A stretch of DNA of 25,026 bases from Perkinsus olseni (Eukaryota; Perkinsozoa; Perkinsida; Perkinsidae): contig JABANP010000649.1 in the NCBI GenBank assembly GCA_013115135.1, positions 1 to 25,026 of the forward strand. The letters run 5' to 3'. Under the pieces are notes generated by a model that saw nothing but the letters and a program-made list of their open reading frames with translations, was not told where the DNA came from and did not search any database. The translations under genes were made by a program, and so were the position numbers. Shown one piece after another: positions 2,261 to 20,376 of the stretch. Position 1 is the stretch's first letter. Each line of letters opens with the position of its first letter.

Positions 2261-2282
2261 GCGTCACGGTGACGCCGTCACC
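2261..2282. repeat. 22-nt 7-8-7 palindromic scar, perfect
   Basis: N = GCGTCACC. N1-7 (2261-2267), the full reverse complement of N (2268-2275) and N2-8 (2276-2282) follow without a gap. All 14 constrained positions match. The net gain over one N is 14 nt. Confidence 0.9.
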
Positions 2283-2341
2283 AGAAGGTGATGACGCATG
2301 AGGCATCGCGCATCCAGAAGGCTCGAGACTTATACTCATCG

Positions 2342-2356
2342 GCAGCAACTTGCTGC
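2342..2356. repeat. Perfect 7-1-7 palindrome
   Basis: GCAGCAA and TTGCTGC flank a single C at 2349. A second perfect one, CGCTCCA-C-TGGAGCG, lies at 2385-2399. Neither has a second mirror centre 7 nt away. Confidence 0.9.
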
Positions 2357-2472
2357 TTCCAAGACGCGCCTCGACCGATCCTTTCGCTCCACTGGAGCGC
2401 CCTTTGAGTAGACCTCTCACAGTTCACCCGTGGTCGGTGCTCGGATCTCCCGGGCTACCCTCCTTCGAACCA

Positions 2473-2494
2473 GTCTAACAGTTAGACTCTAACT
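2473..2494. repeat. 22-nt 7-8-7 palindromic scar, perfect
   Basis: N = GTCTAACT. Left copy of N1-7 at 2473-2479, reverse complement at 2480-2487, N2-8 at 2488-2494. All 14 constrained positions match. Confidence 0.9.
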
Positions 2495-2735
2495 CCCGTT
2501 ACAACGGTGATGGTTGTCTTCATGCACGTGCACTTCTAGCGTTGTAAGCTTAACAACCGCCTGCGCCGGCTGTAGAGTCACTCACGAATGACCGGAATTT
2601 GATCGGGAGGCACGCTCGGTGGATACTGTTACTCCCCTTTGATCTAGTTGGTAACTCTGGTTCATCGATCCTCATTTATCAAATCAGTCTCTCATCACGA
2701 ACTTATTTCCGATCAGGAACCTCATTTCCTCCAAG

Positions 2736-3006
2736 ATGAACCTCGTGTCGACCTGTCTGATCGTCACCCAGCTCTTTGCAGCCACGACATGCCAACTCTG
2801 GTACATTCACTTACCTGACTCCAGACTTCAAGCTGGCTCTACGTTGTGGGCCATTACGCAGTGATGTCAGGCTTACTGTCGAGGTTACTAACGGGCGACG
2901 CTCACGAGGTATACTCATATCCACTCAAGATGAAAAGGGCCGTCACAAAGCACCTTTTGAAGGATTCTTCACCACGAATTATACTGTCGACTTTGGAGTT
3001 CGAAGA
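2736..3006 (+). pseudogene. Secreted protein gene, 5' half, cut by retrotransposon
   Basis: The start ATG at 2736 opens a clear signal peptide (MNLVSTCLIVTQLFAATTC): a short polar start, a hydrophobic core and small residues before a likely cleavage site. Right after it the frame shifts by one, apparently from one extra C near 2793. The mature part then continues from 2794 to 3006 (about 71 codons, beta-strand-like, including TPDFKLALRCGPL and LTVEVTNG). The reading stops where the LTR element begins at 3007. The rest of the gene lies at 7907-8434, and the codon phase matches exactly across the insertion. I do not recognise the family. It looks like a cysteine-containing secreted beta-rich protein of about 265 residues. 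With the insertion and the frameshift it is probably inactive. Confidence 0.7.
3002..3006. repeat. Target site duplication, left copy (GAAGA)
   Basis: GAAGA directly precedes the element start TGTTG at 3007. The same five bases follow the element end CAACA at 7902-7906. A 5-bp duplication is normal for LTR integrases. Confidence 0.85.
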
Positions 3007-3073
3007 TGTTGATGCCCAATGGTTGTGACCGTGACGTTGTGAGTTAAGCCTCCGTCCCCTTCGTAGCTTATTA
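3007..3073 (+). repeat. 5' LTR remnant
   Basis: It aligns with the first 64 bases of the 3' LTR (7697-7760), starting TGTTGATGCCCAAT and including GTTGTGACCGTGACGTTGTG. Differences are one substitution and small AG, CC and T length changes. After 3073 the similarity stops, although the 3' LTR runs on for another 141 bp. The sequence that follows contains inverted copies of GTAGCTT (3063-3081 and 3096-3103), so the rest of this LTR was apparently rearranged or lost. Confidence 0.8.
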
Positions 3074-3185
3074 AAAGCTACTGAAATATCGTAAAAAGCT
3101 ACGTATTTATCACTCGTAAAGATATTACTCAGGGCCGTCGTTTAGCACAAAGGCATTACCCCGATAGTTTATTCTGGGACTGGAG

Positions 3186-3942
3186 ATGCTCTACCATATG
3201 TGGTTTTTAAACGACGATTTGATTTTGCTATGTCGACAGAATGGATTGATAGGCGATCCAGTGTCGGTCTACCATCTTCTTCTTCGCTGTCTCTCTCCTG
3301 CCTTGATTGTTGCTCTCAAATCCATCTGTTGTTGGTCTTGGTATTGCCAAAGATTGGGATTCGAGATAGGTCGGTTATTCTCCCTCGTTATCATTGTCCT
3401 GTTCTGTGTGAGTGACGATGTGGCAAGGCTGGGAGCTAGTCAGTCCTTTGCTAATATAACTCAGAGTCAGAACGAGACTGTTTCTGAATTTATCGTTCGA
3501 TTTTTCGAATGCATCATCCGATCTCACTCGCCTATTTGGGGCTAGGGAGGTAGATGATGAAAAAGTTGCGTACTACCTTTTGAAGGCATTACTACCGGTA
3601 TGGAGGTCGACTGCAATGGACATTCTTTCTCGTGGAGGAGACCTACAGACGGTGGAACGTGAACTTTCTCAACGGAACGATTGGAGAAGGCGGTTAATGG
3701 TTCTACCCGTAGTTCTTCTCCCTTGACTCGACTACTCGTGTTCGATTGAATGCTATAAGTGGCGAGGTCTCTACTGGGGAGGAAGGCGGTGGTGCTGGTC
3801 AGTCTGACAACAACGGCGTCATCGACGACAGTCTAAAGTTGGTGAAAAAGCCCTGTTTCCAATGGAGGGATACTGGATCAGTTTGACAAGTACCAGTATT
3901 ACTGGTACTTGTACATTCGGCGACAAATGTCGTTTTTACATG
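3186..3942 (+). pseudogene. gag: gag-like region with CCCH zinc finger, broken
   Basis: A capsid-like segment begins in the frame that reads SFANITQSQNETVSEFIVRF (about 3445-3504). It continues one frame over as DLTRLFGAREVDDEKVAYYL (from 3520) after a one-base change in a T-run near 3502. Further on, GEVSTGEEGGGAGQSDNNG leads to KKPCFQWRDTG (to 3876) and, after a 29-nt interruption, to TCTFGDKCRFY (3907-3939). Ignoring that interruption and one missing base before the final His, the spacing is C-x8-C-x5-C-x3-H, a CCCH zinc finger rather than the usual CCHC knuckle of gag. The true start is not clear. Confidence 0.65.
3886..3912. repeat. Perfect 13-1-13 palindrome inside gag zinc finger
   Basis: ACAAGTACCAGTA and its exact reverse complement surround a single T at 3899. 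It belongs to a 29-nt segment (3877-3905) that interrupts the zinc finger and is bounded by two copies of TACTGG. Confidence 0.95.
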
Positions 3943-4853
3943 AACAGTCTAATATTGCTAATGTTGCGCCTATGGTGGACTCAACCTCGTCTCCTTATGC
4001 TACAGCTGTTGATTCAGTTGCAACCAGGACAATTGAGGGGTCTTCATGTGACGTATTGGCTTTAGCGGCTGGTAATGAGCATTGTCTATCGTTTGTGAGT
4101 CTAGATATTCCGGAATATGGATCGGCTCCTGTCCTGTTGGATTCTGGTGCGTTCTGGAATTATGCACCTCTTAGGTTACTAGAAGATTTAGGCTTCTCAG
4201 AAAAAAATCTGACTGGCTGTGAGGAGGTTGTTACCTTAGCAAATAGTTCTAAGAGTCATGTTTGTGGGACTATTAGTATTAATAATCTGGTCTTTCGGGT
4301 ATTGGATTCCAGTGTTGATTATTTGATCATTGGAGTGAAGTCTATGTATGATCTTGGTATCAGTTTGTCATTTGGTGATGGTCACTCTGCGGGTCTCTTT
4401 GCTATAAGCATGGGACAAGCACACACTATTGCATCACTATGTGCATGTGGTTTGACGGGTTATGATGGTCGAGATCAGCTGTGTACGGTATGGTCGCCTA
4501 ATGTATTTGAGAGTTCTTTGACTGGGGACGTCTCGCCCGTCTGCGATTGGTTACCGGTTGTCGGTTCCGAAGGCTATTGTTGGAGGGCAAGGGCTGATGA
4601 AGAACGAGATACGGCAACCCAACGTTATGCCATCCAGGTAAAGGTTCCCCATGACAAAGAAAAGGTCGCAAGGTATCCTTCAAGAGGAGACTATGGTAGG
4701 CGCATGGTTGAGAAGATGGAGGAAGCTGAGCAGGTGAAATTCCTAGCTGAAGTTCAGAACTATGAACACAAGCTTTGGTGGAAGAAGATTGGCTCAGTTG
4801 AGACCAACCCACCGTCACCTGGTACTCTGGTGGTTTTCCCCGTCAGGGCTTAG
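3909..4853 (+). CDS. pro: Retrotransposon aspartic protease segment
   Basis: This is the longest intact frame of the element (314 codons), although its first codon here is TTG, so it is a piece of the gag-pol polyprotein rather than a separate gene. The active-site triad DSG lies at residues 78-80 in the context APVLLDSGAFWNYAP. The second conserved hydrophobic-G motif is DYLIIGVKSMYDLG near 137-150. Both are typical of retropepsins, which cleave the polyprotein. The C-terminal third (charged, VEKMEEAEQVKFLAEVQNYE) leads toward the reverse transcriptase. A TAG stop ends it at 4851-4853, and the next domain is in another frame beyond a 14-nt scar. Confidence 0.75.
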   Translation: MYIRRQMSFLHEQSNIANVAPMVDSTSSPYATAVDSVATRTIEGSSCDVLALAAGNEHCLSFVSLDIPEYGSAPVLLDSGAFWNYAPLRLLEDLGFSEKNLTGCEEVVTLANSSKSHVCGTISINNLVFRVLDSSVDYLIIGVKSMYDLGISLSFGDGHSAGLFAISMGQAHTIASLCACGLTGYDGRDQLCTVWSPNVFESSLTGDVSPVCDWLPVVGSEGYCWRARADEERDTATQRYAIQVKVPHDKEKVARYPSRGDYGRRMVEKMEEAEQVKFLAEVQNYEHKLWWKKIGSVETNPPSPGTLVVFPVRA

Positions 4854-4865
4854 AAAGTTGGGTCA

Positions 4866-4887
4866 TCAACCCGGGGTTGACAACTCC
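4866..4887. repeat. 22-nt 7-8-7 palindromic scar, one mismatch
   Basis: N = TCAACCCC on the left, with reverse complement at 4873-4880 and right copy CAACTCC at 4881-4887 (one mismatch). Removing 14 nt places the protease frame and the reverse transcriptase frame (RPVLDARLRN at 4892) in the same phase, although the TAG at 4851 remains. Confidence 0.75.
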
Positions 4888-5700
4888 CATACGACCAGTT
4901 TTGGATGCCCGATTGAGGAACTTGTTCAGTCCGGTTAGTTCGTATGTCATGGTCTGATGGTCCTACAATTGGGTCTATTCTTTTGGATTTGAGGCTACGT
5001 TATAAACGGCACTCCAGGGTTTTGGTGAGAGATGCGAGTGCCGCATTTTATCGTATCCGTCTGGAAAAGATTCAGTGGTAGAGTTGGTGGCTAATGGTGT
5101 GCTCTATAAAAGTTGTCGCCTTTGTTTCGGTCTACGAGCGGGCCCCATGTTGTTTGTGGGCTGGCCTTACCTTCATTTTGGACTTAGCGCTGTCAGAGCT
5201 CCTCGGATAAGGTTAAGGAATATTTATGGAATTGTTCTATCTACCTTTATTTAGATGATTTAACATTGGTTATCAATGAAGGTGGGTGATTCCCCTTATC
5301 TGGTTGATGGTAGATCTGTTGCTGATATATTACTAGAGAAGATAACAGATGTTGCTGGCCGCTACGGTTTTGACTTTCCAAAAGAAAAAGGGATGTGACA
5401 GTGCCGACCAGAAGGACTTTAAACATCCTCGGTATACGATGGGTATTTGATAAGGAGAATTCTGGTGATCTTGGTTTCTGGTCTGCCTTAAGCATAAGGT
5501 TGGTCAGTACCGTGATGAGAACAATAAGATTAAGACCAAGTGGACGAAAAAGGTCATTATACTCGTTGTCTGCGGTTGTGAGCAGTGGTTGTGATCCTCT
5601 ACTCATACACGGTTCAGAAAGGTTAGCCGGTGATGTTTTTGAAGATAATCGGAGGTGCTCTGGCGAAAGGTCAGAAGTGGGATGACGAGTTTGTGATCAA
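4883..5700 (+). pseudogene. pol: Reverse transcriptase remnant
   Basis: Conserved blocks of a retroviral-type reverse transcriptase can be read in shifting frames: RPVLDARLRNLF (from 4892), the motif A region VLVRDASAAFYRI with the catalytic Asp at 5031, FGLRAGP (5126-5146) as the motif B region, and the catalytic YLDD box at 5248-5259 followed by LTLVINEGG. Downstream, RYGFDFPKEK and LNILGIRWVFDKE correspond to the thumb/connection. Order and spacing are right for one domain. At least five single-base frame changes or stops interrupt it, so it cannot make a working enzyme. Confidence 0.8.
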
Positions 5701-5802
5701 GGAAGATGATCCGGCTTATCATGTATTGTCCCTCATGTCTTGAGACTATTGAGAGATACCAGAGCACAGAGTGCTATCATCCAGTACATGAACTAGTTCC
5801 TG

Positions 5803-6310
5803 GTGATGATGAGATTCATGTTTTATGTTGATGCGAGCTCCTTGGCATGGTCGTGGGTCATGATGACTTATGATGCCAAAAATGAATCTGAGTCGATGCT
5901 ACAATCATCGGGTGGTATCTTCAAGGGTGCTGCACGTAATTTTCATATAAACAGAAAAGAACTAATAGCTTTATCGAAAGCTACCTTGGCTATCCACTCG
6001 GCGCTATCTGGCAAAACGCAGGTATCCTTTGGTCTCTCGAGTGGTGATTTTCAGTGACTCTCAAACGGTTAATCGTTGGGTGACTACCAATAAAATGTTC
6101 TGTACGAAGTCTCGAACGAGTGGTGAGTTAGGAGGCTCACCGAAGCCATCCGCGAGATTATCGGTGATCTGCAGTCTACTGGTGTGTCTGTGGTTGTACG
6201 GAAGGTCGACTCTGACTCTAATAAAGCGGATGCATTATCAAGGCTACCGTTATTGTGGGGTTATGACCGGTTGGATTTTGTTGATGGTGGTGATGCTCCT
6301 ATCTTCCTAG
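5803..6310 (+). pseudogene. pol: Retrotransposon RNase H remnant
   Basis: FYVDASSLAW (first catalytic Asp at 5830-5832) opens the domain. FHINRKELIALSKATLAI supplies the conserved Glu. IFSDSQTVNRWV (Asp at 6056-6058) follows after a one-base frame change. VRKVDSDSNKADALSRLP near 6200-6250 is the C-terminal block with the last Asp and the Asn-x-Ala-Asp-x-x-Ser-Arg signature of retroelement RNases H. The domain normally degrades the RNA strand of the RNA:DNA hybrid. Two frame changes (about 6040 and 6130) break it. Confidence 0.75.
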
Positions 6311-6510
6311 CGCTAATCCTGTGCATACGGTGCAGGGGGTGATGAGGCGCTCGGTCAGGATGAGTCGGTGTTGCTGACAGGTGTGCTTACTCGTGACTCG
6401 TTAAAAACAACTTCAACGCCAGTCTCCATTTTTGGAAACCGGTTGTAGAGTTTGTTGAATCGGGGAGAAAAGGGCATCCTGTAGCTGCTGTTCTCAAAGC
6501 CGCCGAATGT

Positions 6511-7529
6511 GTGCGTTTATCACATGATGGTGTTCTCATGGGCTTGCGTTATGCCCATGGATCTGTTCTGCAAGAACCTCGAGAAGTTTATATCGTTCCT
6601 GGGGATACTACCGATGGTAGGAACTTATCGTTCCGTATTTGTTTAAGTTTCCATAATGGGAACCACTACAACCCCCGATACCTGCGGTATGAGATATCTC
6701 GCAAGTTTGATATTAGTGGTTTTATCGAAGTTATGCTCATTGGTCTATCGCCAATGTAAACGATGTCAACAAGCTGCGGTCACTAGGTTCTATAAAGGTT
6801 TTTGGGACATACTGATATCCCATCATCTTCTATATGGGACAGTGTATGCCTCGACATTGCGGTTCCCTTCCTCAAAGATGTTGATACTCACTACACGGTG
6901 GCATTGGTATGTGTGGATATGTATTCGCACTATGCTATTATTGTTGGTCTACATAACCAACGATCTCAAACGGTTTGTGGTGCACTCAACCGTCTTATCC
7001 AGGAGTATGGACTCCATACTATGGAGTTATGCGGGAACTCAGGAGCGATGGGGGCCCCTGTTTTGTTTCTGCCTACTTCAAGCGATGGTTGGTTAGCAAG
7101 GGAGTTTCTCATAGAGTTGTGAATGAATATTCACCTTTTGAGAATGGTCTAGCCGAAAAAACCGTTAGTGGCCTCAAATCAAGTATAAGACTCTTTCCGG
7201 AGGTTCTTCGCAGTCGCGATCACGATTCGTCTCATTGGTATGAGGTGGCATCTAAAGCGGTGAGAAGGCTCAATGACCGACAGTATCTGAATACGACTCC
7301 ATTTGCTCTGTGTTTCGGTCGTGAACGACGCTCACAGGAAGAAGCTCGGTTGTCTCTGAAGCCGAAGGATACCACAGTGGAGGCCTTGAAGAAGCAAAGG
7401 GAGGAAATGAAGGCTGACTTTAACCGTGAACGTTCTCTTCGGACCCCTGGTAGACAGTTTTCTCCAAGATCGTTGAAGATTTCTCCCGGTCAGAAAGTTA
7501 AGGTGTTTCGGCCCTGGCGTTGGCCATAG
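6511..7529 (+). pseudogene. pol: Retrotransposon integrase, broken by a 14-nt scar
   Basis: The N-terminal part holds HNGNHYN and, in another frame, YRQCKRCQQ, consistent with an HHCC zinc-binding module. The catalytic core has Asp at 6853-6855 (CLDIAVPF), Asp at 7047-7049 (LRSDGGPCF) and Glu at 7155-7157 (NGLAEKTV). Between the last two there are 35 residues, the classical D-35-E spacing. The frame changes between the first and second Asp exactly at the 22-nt palindromic scar 7005-7026; without the 14 extra bases the two halves read through in one frame. Other one-base shifts occur near 6800. The C-terminal part (7330-7529) is basic. No chromodomain is visible. Confidence 0.85.
7005..7026. 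repeat. 22-nt 7-8-7 palindromic scar in integrase, perfect
   Basis: N = GTATGGAG. N1-7 (7005-7011), reverse complement (7012-7019) and N2-8 (7020-7026) match at all 14 constrained positions. The mirror arms extend further, to 8-1-8 on both centres. It shifts the integrase frame by 14 bases. Confidence 0.95.
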
Positions 7530-7687
7530 AAGAGGCCTATTGAAGAAACCGGTCAATACAGTTGTGTCAAAACGAGGTGTTGATGTGGAGCTATTAGAAG
7601 ATGGCAAGTCTGCAGGCAATGAAGTTACTGAGCATATTCGTAATATAAGACCATACTATGCTTAATTTGTGATGTTGGTACACGGTC

Positions 7688-7696
7688 AGGGGGTGA
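7688..7696 (+). promoter_or_regulatory. Probable polypurine tract
   Basis: AGGGGGTGA lies directly before the 3' LTR start TGTTG. LTR elements prime second-strand synthesis from a purine run at this place. One T interrupts it, so the call rests on position. Confidence 0.45.
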
Positions 7697-7901
7697 TGTT
7701 GATGCCCAATTGTTGTGACCGTGACGTTGTGTTAAGCCTGTCCCCTTTCGTAGCTTATTATCAGCGCAAAGCTTGTCCCCGCCGCAGCAGACGCTGTAGA
7801 CTATGCTTGTATTGTATGTTCTATAGTTACTTTCTATATTTCTACTTGTGTTGAGATGACTGGGACGCCACAACACTCTACAAACGATGCGGGCAACAAC
7901 A
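7697..7901 (+). repeat. 3' LTR (205 bp)
   Basis: Starts TGTTG and ends CAACA, short perfect inverted ends of the standard TG...CA type. The first 64 bases match the 5' LTR remnant. The end is set by the GAAGA duplication at 7902-7906. An ATG at 7856 inside the LTR opens a frame that runs into the host gene, so its first 15 codons are LTR sequence. Confidence 0.8.
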
Positions 7902-7906
7902 GAAGA
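7902..7906. repeat. Target site duplication, right copy (GAAGA)
   Basis: Second copy of the five bases seen at 3002-3006, directly after the CAACA end of the 3' LTR. Confidence 0.85.
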
Positions 7907-8434: not shown

Positions 8435-9202
8435 ACTTTTTTTGCGCTGATCATCTGAGAGATGAACGGTCGGTGATAGTTCAGTAATTTTGTGTTTTTA
8501 TGGAACTCTGCACTGAATACTCGCCGACGACAGGTGGTTATCTCTGTACACGCCTTACTATAGAGTATGGTGATAGATCGCTCTAGCGTCCCCGTTGTCA
8601 CCTATTTGTTTTCTCCTCGTTGTCAGTCCGTCATTAAAAAGTATTCTTACTCTGGTATAGTTTTGTCAAACTCGTGGCGAAACGAAGTACGATATACGTT
8701 GCTGTACCGAAGAGTAGATTTTTCGCCTGCGTCATGCGTGGGTGGGTTTTGTTAAAAGCGGGGCGTCATCGACAACATTGCCGTGTCATCCAGTGACGCA
8801 TGGCTCTTTGTGCTTCTGCGAAGTAATCGCGACGAATAGACCCTAGATTCGTCCTTTTCTGCTGTCTTCTTCGAAATGACTGGCATAGCACGGCATACCA
8901 TCTCGATGGTGCGTACACCTTAAAGAGTCCCCCTCTCAGTAACTCGTCATGGGTTGCGTTGTTATTTCTGGTAAAAATGTCGAACGCACGGCATGAACCG
9001 GTATGAAAGTTTTTAGGAAGAAACCCCAACATCTTGCAGATCATTATTGCGGTACAAGGCTAACAATGGAGTTTCACCCGCGATATGAAAAACACTAGTG
9101 AAAAACACATTTTACATTTCACATCGCAAAATTCACATCCAACAAGTGAAATTTAGTCAAAAACGCGTGAAACACCTGAGGCGTTTTTCACTCGCGGTGT
9201 AA
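8435..9202. other. Gene-free stretch
   Basis: No gene is supported. From about 9085 the sequence is AT-rich and repeats GTGAAA and TTTCAC in both orientations (9090-9200), so it is rich in potential stems and might be the end of a non-autonomous DNA element. Confidence 0.4.
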
Positions 9203-9368: not shown

Positions 9369-9378
9369 ACGAGAGACT

Positions 9379-9879
9379 CTACTTGGCAAAACCAACACGC
9401 CTGCGAACGTGACACCGACGTCTCCGAGACGTCGTCTCGTATACAGAAAAATCGAAACGCTTGAGGAAACCAAAGGCACGTTCGACGATGCTGCGCATCG
9501 GAGCTTGCCTCTGGTTTGTCAGAGGATCTCCGAGTTTACCCAGGCGCACAGCCTCTCTATGGATATACAGGTCGTGGCGTGCTCCAATCCACGTCAAGCT
9601 CACACGGACGATACGGCCACGGATGTCAACCACAGCCTGTATTTTCACGACATGAGATTTATACTTGGGTTGGCAGTAACAACGTTGGTTCTGACTAGGT
9701 CGACGGATGCAGATGGGAAACACATCAACATGCCTAATGACGTTCTTAAAAAGACCAATCTCTCCAAAGCGAGGGAGACTCAGCGGGACGTAGGGGTGCT
9801 GGAGCAGGAAGTCGTGCAGTCGTATCTCAAGATCAGCCACTGTCTGAGAAAAAGAACCTCCACATGATGAAGACCACAT
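9379..9879 (-). pseudogene. PIF/Harbinger-type (DDE_Tnp_4) transposase fragment
   Basis: The 166-codon frame carries the hallmarks of this transposase family: VDVFPICIRRP with the first catalytic Asp (residue 52), a KSHVVKIQAVVDIRGRI block, WIGARHDLYIHRE with the second Asp (103), and SIVERAFGFLKRF with the catalytic Glu (133). Only 29 residues separate the second Asp from the Glu. Family members normally have a longer segment there (GDSGY-like and further), so an internal deletion after LGD at 116-118 is likely. The N-terminal part is short as well, and I see no partner MYB-like gene nearby. The enzyme would cut and paste a DNA transposon; this copy is probably inactive. Confidence 0.8.
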
Positions 9880-10431
9880 CTGGTCCTCAATGAGGACTCC
9901 TCATCTCATGGTCAGAGTTCTGCTTGTAACCTGAGGCAACTAGGAGACCTAGTAGGCCACTAGCTGCGAGGCTACTAATCTCGCAATAGCACTGGAGCTC
10001 GGAAGCTAGGAGCGCTAACCCCGTAGAGCAAGAGCTTGGAATTCTACGTCACCACTTGGGTAGTAGGTGACGTTTACGGTACGGTCCTCCAAGCTGCATG
10101 TCTTGCTGAGTGAAGGCCCGGGCTTTGCCTGGAGAAAGTTCAAGCAAGCGTAGCAAGCATCGTTTGTGCGCGAGCTGCTCGCGCGCCCCCGTGATCGACC
10201 AAAGTGGTAGCAACTGTATGTTGCGTTCGTGGTTGTAGGGAGCGGAACCCGGCGTGAGAAGGTCTTCCGGGGCGGTTCCGGGGGAATTTTTCCATTACCC
10301 TTGGTTAGTTATCTGGGAGACATTGCCTGTGTGCTTGCGTGCAAGGCAATGTGACTGTGTTATGTTGGCCGCTGGCCCGAGGCGTGTTGGACATCCTGGC
10401 GATGTCTGCCGGTCTTCGGGTCTCGGGCTAA
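9880..10431. other. Gene-free stretch with hairpins
   Basis: No gene is supported. Inverted repeats include ACGTCACC with GGTGACGT (10046-10073), a perfect 8-1-8 palindrome at 10168-10184 and ACATTGCCT with AGGCAATGT (10320-10352). Confidence 0.5.
10168..10184. repeat. Perfect 8-1-8 palindrome
   Basis: GCGCGAGC and GCTCGCGC flank a single T at 10176. It has no partner centre 7 nt away. Confidence 0.95.
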
Positions 10432-11982: not shown

Positions 11983-12004
11983 ACTGGGACTCCCAATCTG
12001 GGAG
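11983..12004. repeat. 22-nt 7-8-7 palindromic scar, one changed base
   Basis: N = ACTGGGAG in both outer copies. The middle reverse complement at 11990-11997 has one base changed. Mirror centres are at 11990 and 11997. Confidence 0.8.
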
Positions 12005-12086: not shown

Positions 12087-12108
12087 TCCAGAAATTCTGG
12101 ACCAGAAT
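12087..12108. repeat. 22-nt 7-8-7 palindromic scar, perfect
   Basis: N = TCCAGAAT. N1-7, reverse complement (12094-12101) and N2-8 match at all 14 constrained positions. Confidence 0.95.
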
Positions 12109-12121: not shown

Positions 12122-12143
12122 TTCAGTGGTACTGAATCAGTAC
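12122..12143. repeat. 22-nt 7-8-7 palindromic scar, one mismatch
   Basis: N = TTCAGTAC, reverse complement at 12129-12136, one mismatch at 12128. It begins only 14 bases after the previous scar ends. Confidence 0.85.
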
Positions 12144-12174
12144 GTTGTGACGTGACGAGGTCCAGACCGTCTCG

Positions 12175-12196
12175 AATGCTGACAGCATCATGCTGT
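12175..12196. repeat. 22-nt 7-8-7 palindromic scar, one mismatch
   Basis: N = GATGCTGT, reverse complement at 12182-12189, one mismatch at 12175. The second centre is also that of a perfect 8-1-8 palindrome (12181-12197). Confidence 0.85.
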
Positions 12197-12232: not shown

Positions 12233-12254
12233 CAGCTATTATAGCTAAGCTATA
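12233..12254. repeat. 22-nt 7-8-7 palindromic scar, one mismatch
   Basis: N = TAGCTATA, reverse complement at 12240-12247, one mismatch at 12233. Confidence 0.85.
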
Positions 12255-13283
12255 CCTTAAAGACACACGGCGTCGACTTGAAGCGGTCGACCCTCTTGAC
12301 TAGAGTCTTGTCGAGTTTTCGGAATGCCTAGACTGGTAAAACCGTGACGGCGGGGGATTGGGAGGAAGCGGTTAGAACCGCCGCCCCCTTTAACTTAGCA
12401 CTCTCGGTATAAAGTGCTACAGATGTGTTGTCTCATACAGTACCACCCTAGTACTCAACTGATTCGAACAGACCACTTTCGTCTCGCGTCAAGCCATTGA
12501 ACGGGAAACCTCGTTTTGACGAGCGATTGAATTTTCCCTATCATACAACCGGTGGCCGCCACGAGCTCGCCTTCGTCGGTCAATCGCAAACCTCAATGGA
12601 ACAGAGGAGAGGTGAAAGCTCTCGCGTGAAAGTTCGTTGGCCGCCTCATCCCCATCATCGAAGTACCACATAACTGTCGCTAGACGAGAGACGCTATAGC
12701 GCACGCACTTCACGGCGGCAAGGGGAGCATTCCCGCATAGTGCATTGCGGGCACCATTCAGGGCTGCAATCCCGCAGTGAGTGCCACCCTGATTGTTTGA
12801 CTGCGCGACGAGAATGGACCGCCGCGGTAGTCTCCTACATATCATCTGAATCGGTGGTATGTTACTATTGTTACAGTAGTCGAATCGACAGAGTCAATCC
12901 GGTGCGCGGCAGTGCCGCGGCGGCACGGGACAGGAGCCTAGCTGTCCCGGGGACAGTGTCCCCTCTCAGAAAGGAGCTGCCCTTCTAATATGAGACTAAA
13001 GGGACCGCTGAGGTGCCTCAACCTCATCCTGCCTGGGCTCTCATTCGTGAGAGCTACTGCACGTCTACAATGTGTGAGTCATTCGATTCCCTGTGTTAGA
13101 ATCTGGCATGGTTTTGGAAGGGAGACAGGGAGCCATTGAGGACTTCTCGTGGCTATAAGCCACTAGCTAGCTCGCAGGTGTGCTACTTGGCCAGCCCATT
13201 CGAGCGAGTTCATCAAGCAGATCGTTCTACCAAGCTGAATGCCCGGTACTGCTTTGCCAGTTATTAAGTCTTGACAAGTCGCA

Positions 13284-14906
13284 ATGATCCAACTAACTAT
13301 TCTATGCATCATTTATGCTGTCCACGCGGAGTTCACGGGTAGGGCGGCGGTCTTCCATGCTACGACGACTAACCTTTGCAATAAAGATGCGAAGGACGCT
13401 CATGGCAATCTCGTCCCCTGTGGCATATCTCGAGCTAGAGAGACTCTCGGGCTGACGTTGCCTGGTATGGAGGACGGTTCTCTCACTACAAGGGAGCATA
13501 TCATTATTGCTAGAGATGGCAACGTGAGGGTCAAAGCTATGCCAAGCCGCCCTTATCAGTATTTCATGTACACCGAGACCCTAAAGAACGTCAAAGTTCA
13601 TCAGCTGTACAACCACCAAGCCATCGCCCTCATCGACAGTACGCCCGAGTTCGAAGCGCAGCGCCTCTACGGTACCGGGCTGAGTAAAGATGGTTGGACT
13701 GACGAAGGCACGACCAGTCTCGACGGCAAAGCGTTACACAGGTGGACCAAGCGTGGGCCGCAAGGCCTCGATAAGGCTTCTGGCTTCAATTACACAGCCG
13801 TCTATCAGACTGGTATGTACCCTGATATTTGGACGTTCTATACCGACTCAGATGACTCAGCACCTGTGAAGCTGGTCGGGTCTAACTCCTTCTGCAACAA
13901 GGCCTTGCAAGTTACAGAGTACTCCAACTACCGCACTTTGGATGAAACGCTCACTGTGGAGGACTCTATCAAAGAGATGCACGCCATGTATGGTATCGGG
14001 TCTCGCATATTATCCGTTGGAGAGAGTCAGGAGGTTCCTAAAGTATGTGAAGATCTCTTGGAGGCTCCCTACGTGTGTGAGTCTGAACGGGAGTTCTTCG
14101 GAGACGGTCAAGAGGTTGACTGGATACCTTCTGGCAGGAGGATGCGTGGAGCCACAGAAAGCCAGGATATCATCCCGTACTTCGACGTTGCCGAGGGCAC
14201 TGCGGCTTATACGTTCTTCCATCACCAATATGAGAGGCGCCTCCTTCAACTGCTCAAATTTGAGTTCCCCAGCAATTGCAACAACACCGATGGAACTACT
14301 GCTCTGAACTTCTGCCTCTTCGTCGCCGTCGATGCGACTATGTCGACTTACACGCTGAAGGCAGGGCTGACGTTCGTTGATGTGAATGATAAGAACAAGA
14401 AGGCTTCCCTCTACGTCGCTGTTGTAATCGGAAAGGAACTCGGCAACCGTGTTCTGAGGTTGGAGTCCGTGGCCCAGGGAACAGCTACGATATGGCAGGT
14501 GGGGGAAGGAGCCAGTCTTAGCATCGATGTAACGGTTGCTGGCAAGGTCTCCGATGATACGGCGCAGCAGATATTCAAGGCTGAAATACAGATATCGGTT
14601 TCATTCAACGTGAATCTCCCCGTGGTCGGAAGCGTCATGGACTGTACCGCCTATGCGAAAATTGCCGTCACAGCGGCTCCGAACAACGTTATCACGGCCT
14701 ATGGTGAGATCGGTAGGAGCATTTCCCTGCTCGTCGCTGGCGCTGGTGCTGGGGTTAACATTAAGGGGAACACACTCGACAACCAGCCTAACAAGTGGAC
14801 TTTCAAGTCGGAGATATTCTTTACCGCGTGGGTGAATGTCATCTTATGGAGCAATCACTGGAGGTGGAGTTTGGAGTTCTGGAATACTAAAGCGGTATAC
14901 TTCTGA
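13284..14906 (+). CDS. Secreted protein of unknown function, 540 residues
   Basis: This is the only long intact single-exon gene in the window. The ATG at 13284 is chosen because it begins a signal peptide (MIQLTILCIIYAVHA, cleavage likely before EF), and the frame runs unbroken to TGA. The mature protein should enter the secretory pathway. It has eight cysteines outside the signal (32, 46, 204, 255, 265, 332, 344, 454), enough for disulfides, and sequons at N169 and N333. Residues 140-215 (WTKRGPQG, MYPDIWTFYTDSDDSAPVKLVG) resemble a small beta-barrel module in general style only. From about 340 the chain alternates hydrophobic and polar residues, so an all-beta C-terminal half is likely. 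There is a glycine/alanine-rich hydrophobic patch (LLVAGAGAGVNI) near 482-493. I recognise no family. No 1-nt-centred palindrome of 7 or more bp was found inside it. Confidence 0.85.
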   Translation: MIQLTILCIIYAVHAEFTGRAAVFHATTTNLCNKDAKDAHGNLVPCGISRARETLGLTLPGMEDGSLTTREHIIIARDGNVRVKAMPSRPYQYFMYTETLKNVKVHQLYNHQAIALIDSTPEFEAQRLYGTGLSKDGWTDEGTTSLDGKALHRWTKRGPQGLDKASGFNYTAVYQTGMYPDIWTFYTDSDDSAPVKLVGSNSFCNKALQVTEYSNYRTLDETLTVEDSIKEMHAMYGIGSRILSVGESQEVPKVCEDLLEAPYVCESEREFFGDGQEVDWIPSGRRMRGATESQDIIPYFDVAEGTAAYTFFHHQYERRLLQLLKFEFPSNCNNTDGTTALNFCLFVAVDATMSTYTLKAGLTFVDVNDKNKKASLYVAVVIGKELGNRVLRLESVAQGTATIWQVGEGASLSIDVTVAGKVSDDTAQQIFKAEIQISVSFNVNLPVVGSVMDCTAYAKIAVTAAPNNVITAYGEIGRSISLLVAGAGAGVNIKGNTLDNQPNKWTFKSEIFFTAWVNVILWSNHWRWSLEFWNTKAVYF

Positions 14907-14931
14907 AGGCCAGCTGGTGGCACGGCAGCTG

Positions 14932-14956
14932 CCATGGATGGGACTCCCTTCCATGG
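14932..14956. repeat. 12-1-12 palindrome, one mismatch
   Basis: CCATGGATGGGA and TCCCTTCCATGG flank a single C at 14944, 26 bases after the stop codon of the 540-residue gene. It could also form a stem in the 3' end of the transcript. Confidence 0.9.
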
Positions 14957-15004
14957 AGGTCTCAACTTCTCGCTGAATCTAAAAGCAGCTGCTACCTCAG
15001 AGTA

Positions 15005-15026
15005 TACAATAGTATTGTAACAATAC
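15005..15026. repeat. 22-nt 7-8-7 palindromic scar, perfect
   Basis: N = TACAATAC, reverse complement at 15012-15019. All 14 constrained positions match. A further mirror (ATACT-C-AGTAT, 15023-15033) continues the zigzag. Confidence 0.95.
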
Positions 15027-15395
15027 TCAGTATCGGGAAATTCTGACAGCTCACTGAGCCTTTACGTGAGAGGCTTCTCATTTTATGGACCCTTAATAGT
15101 CGCTTGGTTTCCATTTGATTGTTCTGAACTCTTTATGGATTGAGGATAGTACTTATTTTCATTCGGCCAAGTAAATGGTTCTCGAGAAACTATTAAATAA
15201 CACAAGTCAACTCTGTAGAGAAGTCTTCTTGACATATCCAAGGTGTGTCCTAGTCGGAATGACTCCGCCGATGGCTATCGTTACCTTCACGATGAATTCC
15301 ACTTTTTGCCGTTTCCGTCAGTCCGATTTGGTCGATTTCCTTGGAAGCCCAACCACCAAATTCTCATCATGTTGGGTTACAGTTGTCAACATACG

Positions 15396-15417
15396 TATTT
15401 GACTCAAATAATTTGAG
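15396..15417. repeat. 22-nt 7-8-7 palindromic scar, perfect
   Basis: N = TATTTGAG, reverse complement at 15403-15410. All 14 constrained positions match. Confidence 0.95.
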
Positions 15418-15644
15418 GTGACAGAAGTCTTGTGTCACGAGACGCTCCCGTGTCGGGAGTTTCAATAGGGCGCAGGAGACTCTGTCAAAGTTTGCTGGAT
15501 CAAATAGGCTCTGACGAGTATTGACCCTGGATCTGGGTTCAAATACAAGGTCTCGAATCTGGAACGCGGCATTATTCAACTTCGAAGACAAGGATCTCAC
15601 GGCGTGGATGAGAGGATGTCCCCAGAGAGGCCAGAGGGGGTGGC

Positions 15645-15666
15645 CCCCTCCGGGAGGGGCCCTCTT
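15645..15666. repeat. 22-nt 7-8-7 palindromic scar, two mismatches
   Basis: N = CCCCTCCC, reverse complement at 15652-15659. The right copy has two mismatches at its end. GC-rich low complexity makes this one less certain. Confidence 0.6.
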
Positions 15667-15772
15667 GGTCTATGACCTAGTGTGTTCGAATATCGCAGCT
15701 GATACGACGATACTGGTGACTAGTATCAAGATTCAATACCTCAATATGTAAAAGTATCAATGTGTGCGCCAT

Positions 15773-15851
15773 ATCAACTTCGAGATTCGAACTCGGGCCC
15801 CCGTAGACTGGCGCCTGAATCTAGCGCCTAGGACCACTCGGCCAAACTGTC
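15773..15851 (-). tRNA. tRNA-Leu(CAG)-like, degenerate
   Basis: On the minus strand the A-box region TGGCCGAGTGGTCCTAGGCG and the T-loop GTTCGAATC match eukaryotic tRNA-Leu. The anticodon loop TTCAGGC gives CAG, and an extended variable region is present as expected. The stems are poor: two mismatches in the anticodon stem (CTAGA/GCCAG), one in the T stem, and a mismatch plus several G-T pairs in the acceptor. I read it as a tRNA-Leu pseudogene or a tRNA-derived repeat rather than a working gene. Confidence 0.55.
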
Positions 15852-15945
15852 GATGTCGACGTGCATAGATGCTGCCCCAGGCCGTATGCAGTACATTATT
15901 CGAAATTGATAGCCTCAGCGAAGACCATTCCAAAGTCAACTCTCA

Positions 15946-15964
15946 CCAGTAATACTATTACTGG
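15946..15964. repeat. Perfect 9-1-9 palindrome
   Basis: CCAGTAATA and TATTACTGG flank a single C at 15955. The following AT-rich bases contain further mirror copies, including TATTAGCC-TTCAC-GGCTAATA. Confidence 0.95.
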
Positions 15965-16054
15965 ATACTACTAATCATTACTAAATTTATTAGCCTTCAC
16001 GGCTAATAGTAATAGTAATCGCACTCAATATGCTGCAACGAAACGCTCTTATGC

Positions 16055-16124
16055 GCCGCTATCGTCTAGTGATTAGGACGTTAGTTGTGGCCGTGACAAC
16101 CCCGGTCCAAATCCGGGTAGCAAC
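16055..16124 (+). tRNA. tRNA-His(GTG)-like, degenerate
   Basis: The D-arm region TCGTCTAGTGATTAGGAC, the anticodon loop TTGTGGC (GTG, His) and a fully paired T arm (CCCGG/CCGGG around TCCAAAT) are recognisable in the right order and spacing over 70 nt. The acceptor pairs at 5 of 7 positions. The anticodon stem GTTAG/CGTGA pairs poorly. Eukaryotic tRNA-His has the same loop followed by CGTGG, so the 5' side has probably decayed. It is likely a pseudogene, though an unusual functional tRNA cannot be excluded. Confidence 0.5.
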
Positions 16125-16153
16125 TTTGATCGGGCAGCTCCAACAATGCGACA

Positions 16154-16175
16154 GTCTTAAGTTAAAACTTTTAAC
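16154..16175. repeat. 22-nt 7-8-7 palindromic scar, one mismatch
   Basis: N = GTTTTAAC, reverse complement at 16161-16168, one mismatch at 16156. The second centre is also a perfect 8-1-8 palindrome (16160-16176). Confidence 0.75.
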
Positions 16176-16408
16176 TGCACGAGGAACCGTCTACCGGCCA
16201 TTGGCTTTCCATACGTGCTAGGATAGCGCTGCGATTTGTACTTCGCGGCAGAGTACATCACCTCGGCCATTATGTCTAAAAAACTTATATGTCTTCTTAA
16301 CCGGGCCACCAAACTAGGCTGGGGGAGGCGCTGGAATTAAGTGATGGATTCTGCATCGCACAGGCACTCGATGGCTGTGTTTTATGAGCCGCGAACCGTG
16401 AAAATGCA

Positions 16409-16430
16409 GGACAATGATTGTTCAACAATC
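16409..16430. repeat. 22-nt 7-8-7 palindromic scar, one mismatch
   Basis: N = GAACAATC, reverse complement at 16416-16423, one mismatch at 16410. The second centre is also a perfect 8-1-8 palindrome (16415-16431). Confidence 0.85.
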
Positions 16431-16612
16431 AACATCGGGTCCGGATCAAGTAAAGTATGAGTTTTCTTGCCATCTTCTCTAAGAGACCCTTTTTTTCATC
16501 AGCAATCTCTCGGAGGAACGATTGGGAAGAACCGTTCTTTTCGTTTCAGCCACCCTGTTGACGGTATGCCTGTGCGGCCTAGTCGTATTAATCGCACCTT
16601 GCTTGCGCGAAG

Positions 16613-16704
16613 TCCTTAGTTCGATGTTCGGCTCAGGCGCTTCTCCTCGCAAGTTGAATCCTTAGTTCGATGTTCGGCTCAGGCGCTTCTCCTCGCAAGT
16701 TGAA
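16613..16704. repeat. Exact 46-bp tandem duplication
   Basis: Two identical 46-bp units, 16613-16658 and 16659-16704, each beginning TCCTTAGTTCGATGTTCGG and ending CGCAAGTTGAA. No difference is seen between the copies, so the event is recent or this is an assembly artefact. Confidence 0.95.
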
Positions 16705-16738
16705 TCGTGGTGGCCTAAGAATTCGGCAACAATTCATA

Positions 16739-16767
16739 ATTTGTGGCAACCAACTTGTGCCACAAAT
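16739..16767. repeat. 10-bp inverted repeat beside tRNA-Arg
   Basis: ATTTGTGGCA and TGCCACAAAT are exact reverse complements 9 bases apart, 19 bases beyond the 3' end of the minus-strand tRNA-Arg gene. Confidence 0.9.
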
Positions 16768-16786
16768 ACACTCGGGAAAGAATAGC

Positions 16787-16858
16787 GATCTCGGTGGGAC
16801 TCGAACCCACAATCTTTGGTTCCGAAGACCAACGCCTTATCCATTAGGCCACGAGACC
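16787..16858 (-). tRNA. tRNA-Arg(TCG)
   Basis: A complete 72-nt cloverleaf is visible on the minus strand. The acceptor stem GGTCTCG/CGAGATC pairs at all seven positions (one G-T). The D arm GTGGCCTAATGGATAAGGC, a 5-bp anticodon stem TTGGT/ACCAA with loop CTTCGGA (anticodon TCG, arginine CGA codons) and a 5-bp T stem GTGGG/CCCAC around TTCGAGT are all present. A and B boxes are near consensus. No intron. Only a short T-run follows the 3' end, so the terminator is unclear. It looks functional and is the only sound tRNA of the three in this cluster. Confidence 0.93.
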
Positions 16859-17136
16859 ACATTCTACGAGTGTTGCGTATTCAGGAGGCGGCTGACCCGA
16901 GACAGTTCCAACTACACAGTTCTTACTCTACTCAAGAGCGATACCGCATACAACACACTTGATCCCGTATGCTGCATATTCGGATTCGTACCGTAGCATG
17001 CAGTGAGCGACTGCTACGGACCGAAGAGAGCGGGGTTCCAAGAGTACGAGGAACTTTGCCTCGGTCAGGGAAGACACGTTGCCCTCTAGTGAGCTCATGG
17101 AGGTCTGTCTTCACATATGCCGCTAGTCACTAGACT

Positions 17137-17155
17137 TGCCCACTCCGAGTGGGCA
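17137..17155. repeat. Perfect 9-1-9 palindrome
   Basis: TGCCCACTC and GAGTGGGCA flank a single C at 17146. Confidence 0.95.
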
Positions 17156-17537
17156 TCAAGTGGTACAGTGGCAGCCTGCGCATATTGGTGAAGGGCTGTT
17201 CCGTAGCCTTTGAACGCAAACAGATTCCAGTCGTACAGTTGCAATCCATACAGTAATTTGTTAATGGCTCGGTGCAACTCGGCAAACGATCTTGATAACG
17301 CGCATCACTGAACTGTGACTGAAGTGAAGTCAGACGCATTTCATTCGGTGAGAGCCTTCTCCAGATTGGGCCGGCTTTGTCAGTGACTTTTCTCCGACTC
17401 AGGGACTCTGAGTCTGAAGATTATGAAGAGCCACACGTTGTCCATGGTGAATAGTCCGCTCTTGCTTCCTCTGCATCGCTAGAATTTCGTCCCGCCCATG
17501 TTGAACTCAACTGTCGACGTTTTGTGACTCGTACCTG

Positions 17538-17559
17538 CGACTCCGCGAGTCGGACTCGC
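17538..17559. repeat. 22-nt 7-8-7 palindromic scar, one mismatch
   Basis: N = CGACTCGC, reverse complement at 17545-17552, one mismatch at 17544. Confidence 0.85.
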
Positions 17560-18268
17560 AGGCTGAGAGAGCTCGCTCGTGGCCGAAAGCGCCTTCGACG
17601 CTTTGGTCAGCCAGGCTCGCCACAGTGGAAATGATTGCTGCACATGCGAGAATAACAGCCCCGGAACGAAGCTCCGTGAAAGAAGGCCGTGAGTCCCAAC
17701 GTGCAGAATACTCGCGAACCTCCTCTGAAGTCTCGTCCGAAATGATACTTGCTAGTTCGAGGGGCCTGGGACGGCCGGAAATGTTGTTGGCTCCGTGCCG
17801 ATTCTGAGCCGAAACTCAGCCTCGCTCAGCACATTACAGCCCACTTTCGAGTAAAAACTCACAAATCTACGCGATAGTCGTATCAAACATCAGTTGAGCA
17901 GGTGACAGTGCGGCATGTGGCATGCAGCATGTTCAAACACAGTTCTTCAGTTGTAGCTTCCGTTTCTGAGAAAATATATGACGATCAAAGTCCGGAAGGA
18001 ACCATTCAACAGAGCAGTCCCCGAGAAAGGCGGCGCTGATCGCTTGATCGTCTACCACACGAGTTGGCCATGTCAAACGTCCTCATCTTGACTCAACATG
18101 CTCGTTGGTTCGCTGCCTCGTTGAAGAGATTTCGTCGCCCCGATAACTTACTTTCTTCCGTCAGTTCGGTGTAAATTCGCTTATTCGGCGATCATGGAGG
18201 ACTCTCTCTCTTCGAGATTTCTGAGGCAGGAATGTTGCAGGGCTCGCTGGGGACTCCAAGGCCCTCAC

Positions 18269-19049
18269 TCACTCGTCTTCAGCCAGGGCATCGTAGAACT
18301 CCTCAACTTTTTCACCCTCGAGACATTCGGTCCCGTCTCCACCTCTAGATACCACATGCACATAGCTCGCCACGTAAATAAGAGTGCTTCCGACGGTACC
18401 GAATGGTATCAGGCCGAATAAAATTACAACCAGCCCGGGGTTCCAGCTCAGCCATATGAGCTCCCCTATTGGCTCGGGCAGCGTCCCCGACATCATTCCG
18501 GCTACAGTGCGATCGGCGAGAAATGCCGCGCCTTGAAGAACAGTGCCCCTCCCTTTGCCTCGGAGAATCTTCGCGACTCTCGTGTCCTTCTCCTGGGCTT
18601 TATTGAGTGCCCCGGAGACGCCAAATTGTTTTCGGAAGTCCCGCAGGCGAGCTGACATGTGAAAGCCGACCACCAACCACCACAGGCATGTGATGATCAT
18701 AAATATCAGCCAAGCCTGAGAAGATCGAGGACACGAGCATGATACAGTGGACTTCACAGGGTGGAGCGGATCAACACAGTAGGCACTTCAAGTCCGGCGG
18801 CAGGAACTTTTCGAATACGTTTTCAATAGTGCACGACGACGATGTACACCTCTGAGGTGTCAGCTCACGCGCAACCCATTTACTCTTGTCTTACTGAACC
18901 AGCTAAGGCTACTACGGTCTCACCTTCCCAAGCTGCGACTTAGCCCTGCCGGGTTCTGTTACGATAACTGCGCCAGCCAGAATGAAATCGCAAACTACTA
19001 ATACGTAGAGGACGAGCGGAGCGTAATCGAACATGAGCGGCTTGATCAT
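18269..19049 (-). CDS. Two-exon membrane protein, about 190 residues
   Basis: Exon 1 (19049-18924) starts with ATG and encodes 42 residues with a strong hydrophobic segment (APLVLYVLVVCDFILAGAVIV). It ends at a donor, AAG|GTGAGA. A 208-nt intron (18923-18716) ends in CGATCTTCTCAG. Exon 2 (18715-18269) begins in the same phase with AWLIFMIITCLWWLVVGF and ends at TGA. At least three membrane segments result: about residues 10-31, 43-60 and 135-165. A basic stretch lies between the second and third (RVAKILRGKGRG) and an acidic tail at the end (GEKVEEFYDALAEDE). Both exons share frame, strand and hydrophobic character, which supports the splice. A further 5' exon is possible, because TTCCCTCTCAG just before the ATG could be an acceptor. 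No family is recognised. Confidence 0.6.
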
Positions 19050-19142
19050 GGGGTGCTGAGAGGGAATAAAAATCAGATTCGAGATTTTACGTGTCGTTGA
19101 TGACTGTCATGAGTGGCTAATAGCTACAGGCTGTAAGGATGA

Positions 19143-19164
19143 CACGTTCGGAACGTAACGTTTC
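19143..19164. repeat. 22-nt 7-8-7 palindromic scar, two mismatches
   Basis: N is about TACGTTCC, reverse complement at 19150-19157, mismatches at 19143 and 19163. ACGTTC-G-GAACGT and AACGT-A-ACGTT are the two mirrors. Confidence 0.65.
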
Positions 19165-20320
19165 GTTCGACGGCCCAACAGCTCATCGAATTGCTAAGGA
19201 CGGCGTCATTCGGTAGAAATACTCGACGGCAGGGATAGAACGAGAAGCCGTCTGAATAGCAGACCAGCAACGTTTCTACTACGCCAGATGACCATATCTT
19301 TTAGCCTATTACAAGCATAGTGTTCTCATGGAAGTGCACGTGCCATCTCCATGCGATGTCAGGAGAAAGTTACGGCAGGAGGATGAGCATCACAATCAGC
19401 ATCCCTGTCCGGAGACTCAGCCCGAAGCAGGTCCCCTGACGAACTGACGAACTCATAACCCTTGCCGACTGAACGCCAGACGCGAGGCTGCATGACAGAT
19501 CGCCTTCTCGGTTACCTGCGTTGAAGCTGCGAATCATCCGCTGGGGCGTGCTACAGTCGTTAGTTGGTTAATCGGAATGAAAACACTGCTGAGACAAAAA
19601 ACTATCAGAACAGGGGACAGTTCTGGCGAGGCTGACTCCAATGCCTGGGGGAGTTAAGGATGAAGAGTTCTATACTCGAATCAACCGCGGTTCGATTCAT
19701 ACTCTGAGGAAGGCATTTCCTCTTGGTCCGATCAGCAGCGATTTTCGAGTGCAACTTTCACCGATAGAATTCCGCTATCAGATGGAAAACTGCAGTTATC
19801 ATCGACAGCGGGACGATAGAACGCGAGGAGCAGCGACCACGGCTGTAACCGTCTAGGAGCAATAGCATACGAGCAGCGATATCCAAATATTCTTGAAGAC
19901 CACTATTGTGTAAAGTGGCGTGATAGCCGGCGCCCTTTGTGCTGAGAGACGCGGCGATTATACCATGTACACCACGATGTATAAGGAAGGCTTCCATTGG
20001 TATCCATACATACCCTCGCCCGGGATTGAACCTGGGCGGGTGATGAAACAGTGCGAAGCCTTTGAAGCACGCATACGCGACGGGCCTGCCTCCTAATAGA
20101 TGCACTTTTCGTGCAATGTGCAAGAAATATCTGCGCCGCTTCGACGATATGATTGTTTCTTTCTTCTTCTTCTCTACCCTTGTCACCGGTCTTTGATTTG
20201 TTCAGAATCGTAGCGGATTGAGGCAGACTTGGTACCGTCGATGGTGAATTGTTGACGATGATAATGTTGTTAATTGTCTGATGTGATGCGCCTACTTCAG
20301 TACAAGAATCTCAAGTAAGA

Positions 20321-20376
20321 TTTTCAGAGTAAAAATAGAGATTCTCGAATCGAGAAGTTTCATTTTGCTCTGAAAA
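20321..20376. repeat. Long hairpin enclosing a smaller palindrome
   Basis: TTTTCAGAGTAAAA (20321-20334) and TTTTGCTCTGAAAA (20363-20376) pair at 13 of 14 positions and enclose TTCTCGA-A-TCGAGAA (20342-20356). It is a candidate cruciform or structured RNA about 120 bp before the next possible gene. Confidence 0.85.
20335..20356. repeat. 22-nt 7-8-7 palindromic scar, two mismatches
   Basis: N = TTCGAGAA, reverse complement at 20342-20349, two mismatches in the left copy. Confidence 0.6.

Follow-up and report, generated by a model that had tools for sequence, protein, structure and literature searches.

The window analysed here is the whole 25,026-base contig JABANP010000649.1 (C611) of Perkinsus olseni, from an assembly of 61.5 Mb in 968 contigs. 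Scattered along it are copies of a 22-nt structure, designated '7-8-7', in which the first seven bases of an 8-mer N are followed by the reverse complement of the whole 8-mer, rc(N), and then by its last seven bases (N1-7, rc(N), N2-8), which constrains 14 positions. A scan of the full window gave 10 perfect sites, 10 with one mismatch and 5 with two. All 17 sites listed in the original prediction were found at their coordinates; the six named as perfect are so, and the remaining 11 depart from the pattern at one or two of the 14 constrained positions. Four perfect sites (9418, 9883, 12905 and 12942) and four with one or two mismatches (822, 15421, 18846 and 24498) had been overlooked. We conclude that the 7-8-7 observation is real and that its extent had been understated. 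The chance expectation given at the time, about 1e-4 perfect sites per 25 kb, is correct (25,005/4^14, or about 9e-5), and when the window was simulated 20 times with a first-order Markov model, no perfect or two-mismatch site appeared, against 1 with one mismatch and 14 with three.

A wider scan covered 274,467 unique bases in 64 blocks, made up of the window and fetched loci, with overlaps merged and snippets of a miniature inverted-repeat transposable element (MITE) excluded. Much of this sequence was picked for hAT domains, matches to hAT ends or paralogues, and counts go by genome position, copies of one ancestral scar being counted repeatedly. The scan returned 129 perfect sites (k = 8, offset 1) and 67, 75 and 107 sites with one, two and three mismatches, while the totals from ten Markov simulations of these bases were 0, 1, 9 and 100, respectively. 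The peak was exclusive to k = 8 at offset 1: no perfect site was found for k = 8 at offsets 0 and 2, or for k = 9 to 12 at offsets 0 to 2, and a single perfect hit was obtained for each of k = 6 and k = 7 at offset 1. An apparent second peak at k = 10, offset 3 (7 hits, or 8 with the MITE snippets) was rejected, because all these hits begin 1 nt before a 7-8-7 site and are thus 7-8-7 structures with an extra fitting pair. With 102 distinct 8-mers among 153 perfect instances (overlapping loci unmerged), the structures indeed reflect a process and not a repeat family, as had been proposed. A 22-nt relative exists for 90 of 238 sites; these copies are shared and decay slowly, which rules out a sequencing artefact. 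No description of a 7-8-7 scar was found in a literature search that was largely at the abstract level and covered few subscription journals.

If the structures are insertions, one would expect to find copies of the same loci carrying the 8-mer alone. One genome was covered, and paralogues served in place of orthologues: for the window these included C236:1-3000 (L066), C236:22100-24200 (L067), C489 (L003, L027 and L068) and C235 (L002 and L030). The perfect site at 15005..15026 (N = TACAATAC; here and below, sites are given with no strand assigned) is also present in C235, and C489 (L003) carries only a single TACAATAC between identical flanks. Exact 14-nt gaps in paralogue alignments correspond to three further sites: 2261..2282 (perfect, N = GCGTCACC), a single 8-mer in L066; 9418..9439 (perfect, N = ACGTCTCG), empty in C489 (L068); and 822..843 (one mismatch, N = GTGTGGTG), perfect in L025 and empty in C489 (L027). 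The site at 11983..12004 (two mismatches, N = ACTGGGAG) is perfect in C489 (L003) and likewise missing from C235 (L030). The statement that each structure is a 14-nt insertion thus stands for these five; no empty relative was seen for the other 7-8-7 sites of the window. Two altered structures can be added, one at 116..138 with one extra base (N = GTCGCAAC; perfect in L025, empty in C489, L027), the other, decayed, at 1657..1678 (N = AACCGGGA), a 14-nt insertion that has two mismatches in L066 and is empty in C489 (L068).

The remaining perfect sites of the window are found at 2473..2494 (N = GTCTAACT; a shortened form, with 8 nt fewer, in L068), 7005..7026 (N = GTATGGAG, within a 4.9-kb inserted element), 9883..9904 (N = GTCCTCAT, present in L031 too), 12087..12108 (N = TCCAGAAT, common to C489, L003), 12905..12926 (N = CGCGGCAC, common to C235, L002), 12942..12963 (N = CTGTCCCC; also in C489, L003, and with one mismatch in C235, L002) and 15396..15417 (N = TATTTGAG, common to C235 and C489). 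One mismatch is carried by those at 4866..4887 (N = TCAACCCC), 12122..12143, 12175..12196 (perfect in C235, L002/L030), 12233..12254, 16154..16175 (the C489 copy is 7 nt longer), 16409..16430, 17538..17559, 18846..18867 and 24498..24519. Two mismatches are found at 19143..19164, at 20335..20356, and in two 7-8-7-like sequences, at 15421..15442, which may be due to chance, and at 15645..15666, which is GC-rich and has four additional bases in relatives.

Over all fetched loci, 26 distinct sites (28 query sites in an earlier comparison) had a relative with exactly 8 nt between the matching 50-bp flanks. The sites therefore do exist as a bare 8-mer in relatives, and each of the 26 is a 14-nt insertion. 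Among 99 distinct paralogue insertions of at least 5 nt, 35 were exactly 14 nt long, the next commonest size being represented nine times, and 44 had a terminal direct repeat of at least 5 nt, of which 29 were 14-nt insertions. Thirteen chosen repeat-rich pairs, of which five include the window and some overlap, were aligned over 37,803 bases with 1,056 substitutions; 23 of their 60 gaps of at least 5 nt had this length. Further paralogue insertions of 7 to 10 nt, without the hairpin signature, are located in the window at 2411-2417, 9149-9158, 12418-12426 and 12775-12784.

The centre of the structure is informative as to how the ends were processed. Among the 22-mers with three intact 6-mers (n = 174, overlapping loci included), both centre bases corresponded to 7-8-7 in 154, to 8-6-8 in 2 and were mixed in 18; in the 154, the bases at positions 8 and 15 are complementary to N8 and N1, respectively. 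The 8-6-8 version, which corresponds to 5' overhangs, was rejected on this count (2 compared to 154), from which 3' overhangs are deduced: hairpins at the flanks would have been opened on the strand that leaves 3' ends. The offset of one nucleotide on both sides likewise matches the sequence predicted from flank hairpins.

A second class of insertions may stem from the same pair of hairpins, opened and then joined with no annealing step. Among insertions with a direct repeat of 6 nt, those 24, 33, 37, 47 and 64 nt long contained both half-structures complete, and a search of the 274,467 bases, which demanded both halves in full (partly opened hairpins fall outside it), gave 10 distinct loci with N1-7 rc(N), a gap of 2 to 42 nt, and rc(N) N2-8. 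In five of the ten, the gap contains at least 7 nt of inverted flank (21 nt in C236/C611, 11 in C235, 8 and 10 in C93, 10 in C1 and 7 in C624); in two it contains a weak 2 nt, and in three none that is convincing. The window case, at 2146..2200 (N = TTCGTCAT), is a 47-nt insertion common to L066, and two other copies, L067 and L068, have the bare site. Its order is N1-7, rc(N), 21 nt that invert the left flank (in the form that C236 retains), 4 nt that invert the right flank, and lastly rc(N) N2-8. At C235:231136 the 11 nt of inverted flank are on the left hairpin, and the C489 insertion of 37 nt has a more complicated make-up that includes filler. The pattern was absent from shuffled sequence, and six other settings of k and offset gave a single hit (k = 7, d = 0, gap 63). 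These joins provide an additional test of the original two-hairpin model, in which the overhangs anneal, and they argue in its favour. They lend no support to the proposal that the hairpins are opened exactly at the base of the duplication, since five of the ten were opened 7 to 21 nt beyond it. The common class does not tell the exact place of the nick, because annealing anywhere within N yields one and the same product.

We then consider the elements that could leave such scars. A search for hAT transposases in the genome was positive, as regards both the domains and elements with 8-bp duplications. The hAT dimerisation domain PF05699 had 21 genome matches over the cut-off, compared to 0 in 14 control genomes. 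At one of these (L015) lies a 668-aa open frame, of which a scanned 580-aa piece has PF14291 (DUF4371) and PF05699, and which may encode a transposase. Elements with the terminal inverted repeat (TIR) TAGAGATGGGCAAA had an exact 8-bp duplication at L010 and L012, one mismatch at L023 and no match at L009; 14 exact TAGAGATGGGCAAA ends are present in the genome. Of 60 candidate copies of a 320-bp hAT-like MITE with TIR CAGGGTGGCCCA, 40 were scored; 20 of these were fetched and, together with L044, make up the 21 copies that were read. Each of the 21 is flanked by an exact 8-bp duplication, whereas the other lengths between 4 and 12 gave none; copies are up to 99% alike. That hAT elements here duplicate 8 bp is thus established for the MITE and for L010 and L012; the scar structure, for its part, is built exclusively on an 8-mer. 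Large paralogue gaps yielded one clear hAT-like filled/empty pair, at CTCTTTCC, where the MITE is present in L044 and missing from L045. One MITE copy (L098 on C619) has a perfect 7-8-7 inside it, at position 231, which the other copies lack.

At C206:42955-42990 (L020/L038), a hAT end TAGAGATGGGCAAA adjoins a 7-8-7-like 22-mer with two mismatches and the same N, CTGTCCCC; a relative of this site on C204 (L037) has the bare 8-mer. Either a single site used repeatedly or a one-sided event could account for this arrangement. A search of the L037/C206 neighbourhood gave no further copies.

The target sites also show a weak bias. At positions 2 and 7 of the 8-mer, T/A is preferred (T in 87 of 204 symmetrised positions, P about 6e-5), which is the direction of Hermes, although not all hAT elements share its consensus. 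The consensus reported for Hermes is nTnnnnAn (according to PMC2803484).

Four features, namely the 8-bp size, the offset of one nucleotide, the signature of hairpins and the hAT elements present in the genome, together make it very likely, in our view, that each 7-8-7 is the scar of a hAT-type excision: the flanks would have been sealed as hairpins offset by 1 nt, and opening of these would have let the ends anneal through N. Hermes is known to excise by nicking one nucleotide into the flank, and seals the flank ends as hairpins. By analogy, insertion would first duplicate the 8-bp target to give N-element-N, as seen for the hAT elements of this genome, at places other than scar sites. At excision, a nick one nucleotide into the flank would allow the 3' end of the flank to attack the opposite strand at the element border, so that N1-7 would be joined to rc(N) at the left end, and rc(N) to N2-8 at the right end. 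Opening of the hairpins deep within the duplication, or beyond it, would leave 3' overhangs, as the bases at positions 8 and 15 suggest. The overhangs rc(N) and N could then anneal, and filling or trimming would yield N1-7 rc(N) N2-8 and a net gain of 14 nt; failing annealing, both half-structures would be joined with inverted flank between them, a sequence that is observed. The scars would afterwards drift as neutral sequence. As for the host factors, the genome has an SNM1-like match, an Mre11 match (with one stop inside) and, in one exon, a match to the Ku domain (28.3 bits compared to a cut-off of 25). The idea that annealing reflects a loss of end joining is thus not supported.

A more specific form of this scheme is possible but doubtful: the hairpins would be nicked at the base of the duplication by the transposase complex itself or by a nuclease attached to that complex, and the matching 8-nt 3' overhangs would join like restriction fragments. 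We know of no such cohesive-end exit route for a hAT element; if it were true, excision would be almost deterministic.

Several observations weigh against attributing the scars to hAT excision. No locus was found in the empty, filled and scarred states among all the fetched pairs, compared via large gaps; filled N-element-N sites exist for hAT elements, but none of them corresponds to a scar in a relative, and an attempt to obtain the three states at C540 failed, the element there having an unrelated right flank. The surviving elements are few compared to thousands of scars (14 exact TAGAGATGGGCAAA ends, and 40 MITE copies scored of 60 candidates), so most of the responsible elements would have to be lost or still to be recognised. 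In the MITE's 21 duplications the T2/A7 bias is weak, with T at position 2 in 7 and A at position 7 in 6, as counted by eye. Insertions of other sizes account for 64 of the 99 between paralogues, many of them without the hairpin signature, and the filler in three of the ten unannealed loci matches neither flank. Scars of hAT elements elsewhere are short and mixed, and the uniform outcome seen here needs a host- or element-specific cause. Finally, steady neutral accumulation is expected to give about equal perfect, one-mismatch and two-mismatch classes, and the scanned set comes close to this, but with more perfect scars than it predicts (129 compared to 67 and 75, with 107 in the three-mismatch class). 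This excess hints at recent activity, though the choice of loci also affects the counts.

To what extent the scars fill the genome was estimated from 50 kb taken at 13 contig positions regardless of content, which contained 5 perfect sites, 6 with one mismatch and 4 with two. The density of about 0.1 perfect sites per kb corresponds to about 6,000 per genome (2,000 to 14,000 by the 95% Poisson range of 1.6 to 11.7 for a count of 5, worked by hand). A first guess, based on 79 perfect sites in 108 kb of hAT-bearing or paralogous loci, was discarded as biased upward; the 50-kb sample gave about one-seventh of that density. If the genome contains some 6,000 perfect scars and the loss rate of each is about 22-fold the mutation rate per site, hand arithmetic suggests a gain of about one scar per few hundred substitutions. 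At such a modest rate, neither a burst nor programmed elimination is needed, and the 'massive' excision or programmed DNA elimination put forward in the original prediction is not required by the 5 perfect sites in 50 kb and the graded mismatch classes.

Could another superfamily with 8-bp duplications and flank hairpins have produced the same scars? Merlin elements make 8- to 9-bp duplications, and Merlin-related frames are described for Perkinsus marinus in the account of PMC8101967. According to the same account Merlin ends start with GG, while the 8-bp elements read here start with CAGGG or TAGAG (no Merlin search was run), and flank hairpins are presented in PMC4763223 as the route of hAT enzymes (Kat1 and Hermes). 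We consider this alternative improbable. Programmed DNA elimination, in which a domesticated hAT-like transposase would excise elements by the thousand at a set time, so that only healed sites would be visible in the cells that were sequenced, would explain why scars are far more numerous than the elements found and why perfect scars exceed one-mismatch scars, and a long hAT-like reading frame that appears intact is available for the role. The scars are, however, inherited and decaying (22-nt relatives for 90 of 238 sites, graded mismatches), and hence lie in the genome that is copied; the assembly still contains filled hAT elements; and slow neutral build-up is enough for the density in the 50-kb sample. 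It is therefore very unlikely. Template switching or replication slippage at short palindromes, which also yields locally templated inverted copies, should not impose a fixed length, yet one length and one offset are seen, and the empty alleles show that the targets were not palindromic before the event, so that we find it hardly credible. Equally negligible is the idea that the 22-mers are functional hairpins under selection (terminators, tiny RNA-spliced inserts or protein sites), for which the frequent perfect symmetry and the several sites common to copies could speak, given 102 distinct 8-mers, presence that varies between close copies, free decay, and two 14-nt scars (L007 2298 and 2957) that disrupt the frame of one copy of a DUF6740 gene (C114:84279-85929) and are missing from the other aligned copies.

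Excision of hAT type thus remains the preferred reading, and it can be set beside known systems. The Tourist MITE mPing makes 3-bp staggered cuts. Its target duplication supplies homology that guides repair (PMC4561436), as may be the case here, but it heals precisely, whereas here hairpins intervene and 14 extra bases remain. For Ac/Ds, PMC5873905 describes footprints that involve flank hairpins, P-nucleotides and microhomology, with palindrome arms of up to 20 nt in Saccharomyces cerevisiae and 28 outcome types among 128 in Candida albicans. The resemblance lies in palindromic P-nucleotides centred on the complement of the element-adjacent base and in hairpins opened by host enzymes; the outcomes in that account are mixed and mostly tip-opened, whereas here a single product with an inverted 8-mer dominates, and the paralogue insertions that have a direct repeat of 6 included no tip-opened type. 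Kat1 of Kluyveromyces lactis and Hermes are hAT-type enzymes that leave hairpin-capped flanking DNA (PMC4763223); the breaks made by Kat1 are healed by gene conversion during mating-type switching, whereas the ends here were apparently joined together. Introner elements of Amoebophrya, a related lineage, and of algae are short inserts with direct and inverted repeats (PMC7789003). They are spliced introns, whereas the scars are 14-nt DNA insertions; introners were rejected as the source of the scars, in which no element is left, and the literature found on introners in connection with Perkinsus deals with Amoebophrya. What is new is a variant of hAT excision repair with one dominant product, the whole duplicated 8-mer inverted between two truncated copies, on a genome scale and in an alveolate.

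Other features of the window were recorded. Its sole long gene, at 13284-14906, encodes a protein with PF20525/DUF6740 that is 95% identical to P. olseni FOZ60_012483 and that had no match in a phage collection. A tRNA-Arg (anticodon TCG) is located at 16785-16858 (-), as detected by ARAGORN and Rfam, and nothing but this tRNA was matched in the Rfam scan. A reading frame with a DDE_Tnp_4 (Harbinger-type) match occupies 9379-9879 (-). The 4.9-kb insertion at 3007-7901, missing from L067 and L068, has a 5-nt flanking repeat (GAAGA), ends reading TGTTG...CAACA and a 70-nt near-terminal direct repeat, beyond which self-comparison of the insert revealed nothing; it is probably a retroelement with short terminal repeats. 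A 120-nt segment at 1849-1969 has dozens of copies over the contigs, frequently paired about 583 nt apart.

For this parasite, the 14-nt scar is a major mutation class, judging from its share of the 60 insertions or deletions of at least 5 nt in the repeat-rich stretches. It shifts reading frames, since 14 is not a multiple of 3, and can be used as a strain marker. More generally, hairpin ends made by hAT transposases (and by RAG in vertebrates) are opened by host nucleases, and this step is usually inferred from a few hundred selected events. The P. olseni genome would offer a readable record of hairpin opening, with thousands of scars, a near-uniform outcome, and a minority that shows how far the opening extended. 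A scan for the (k-1, k, k-1) pattern may in turn detect past transposon activity in any genome, even where no element has survived.

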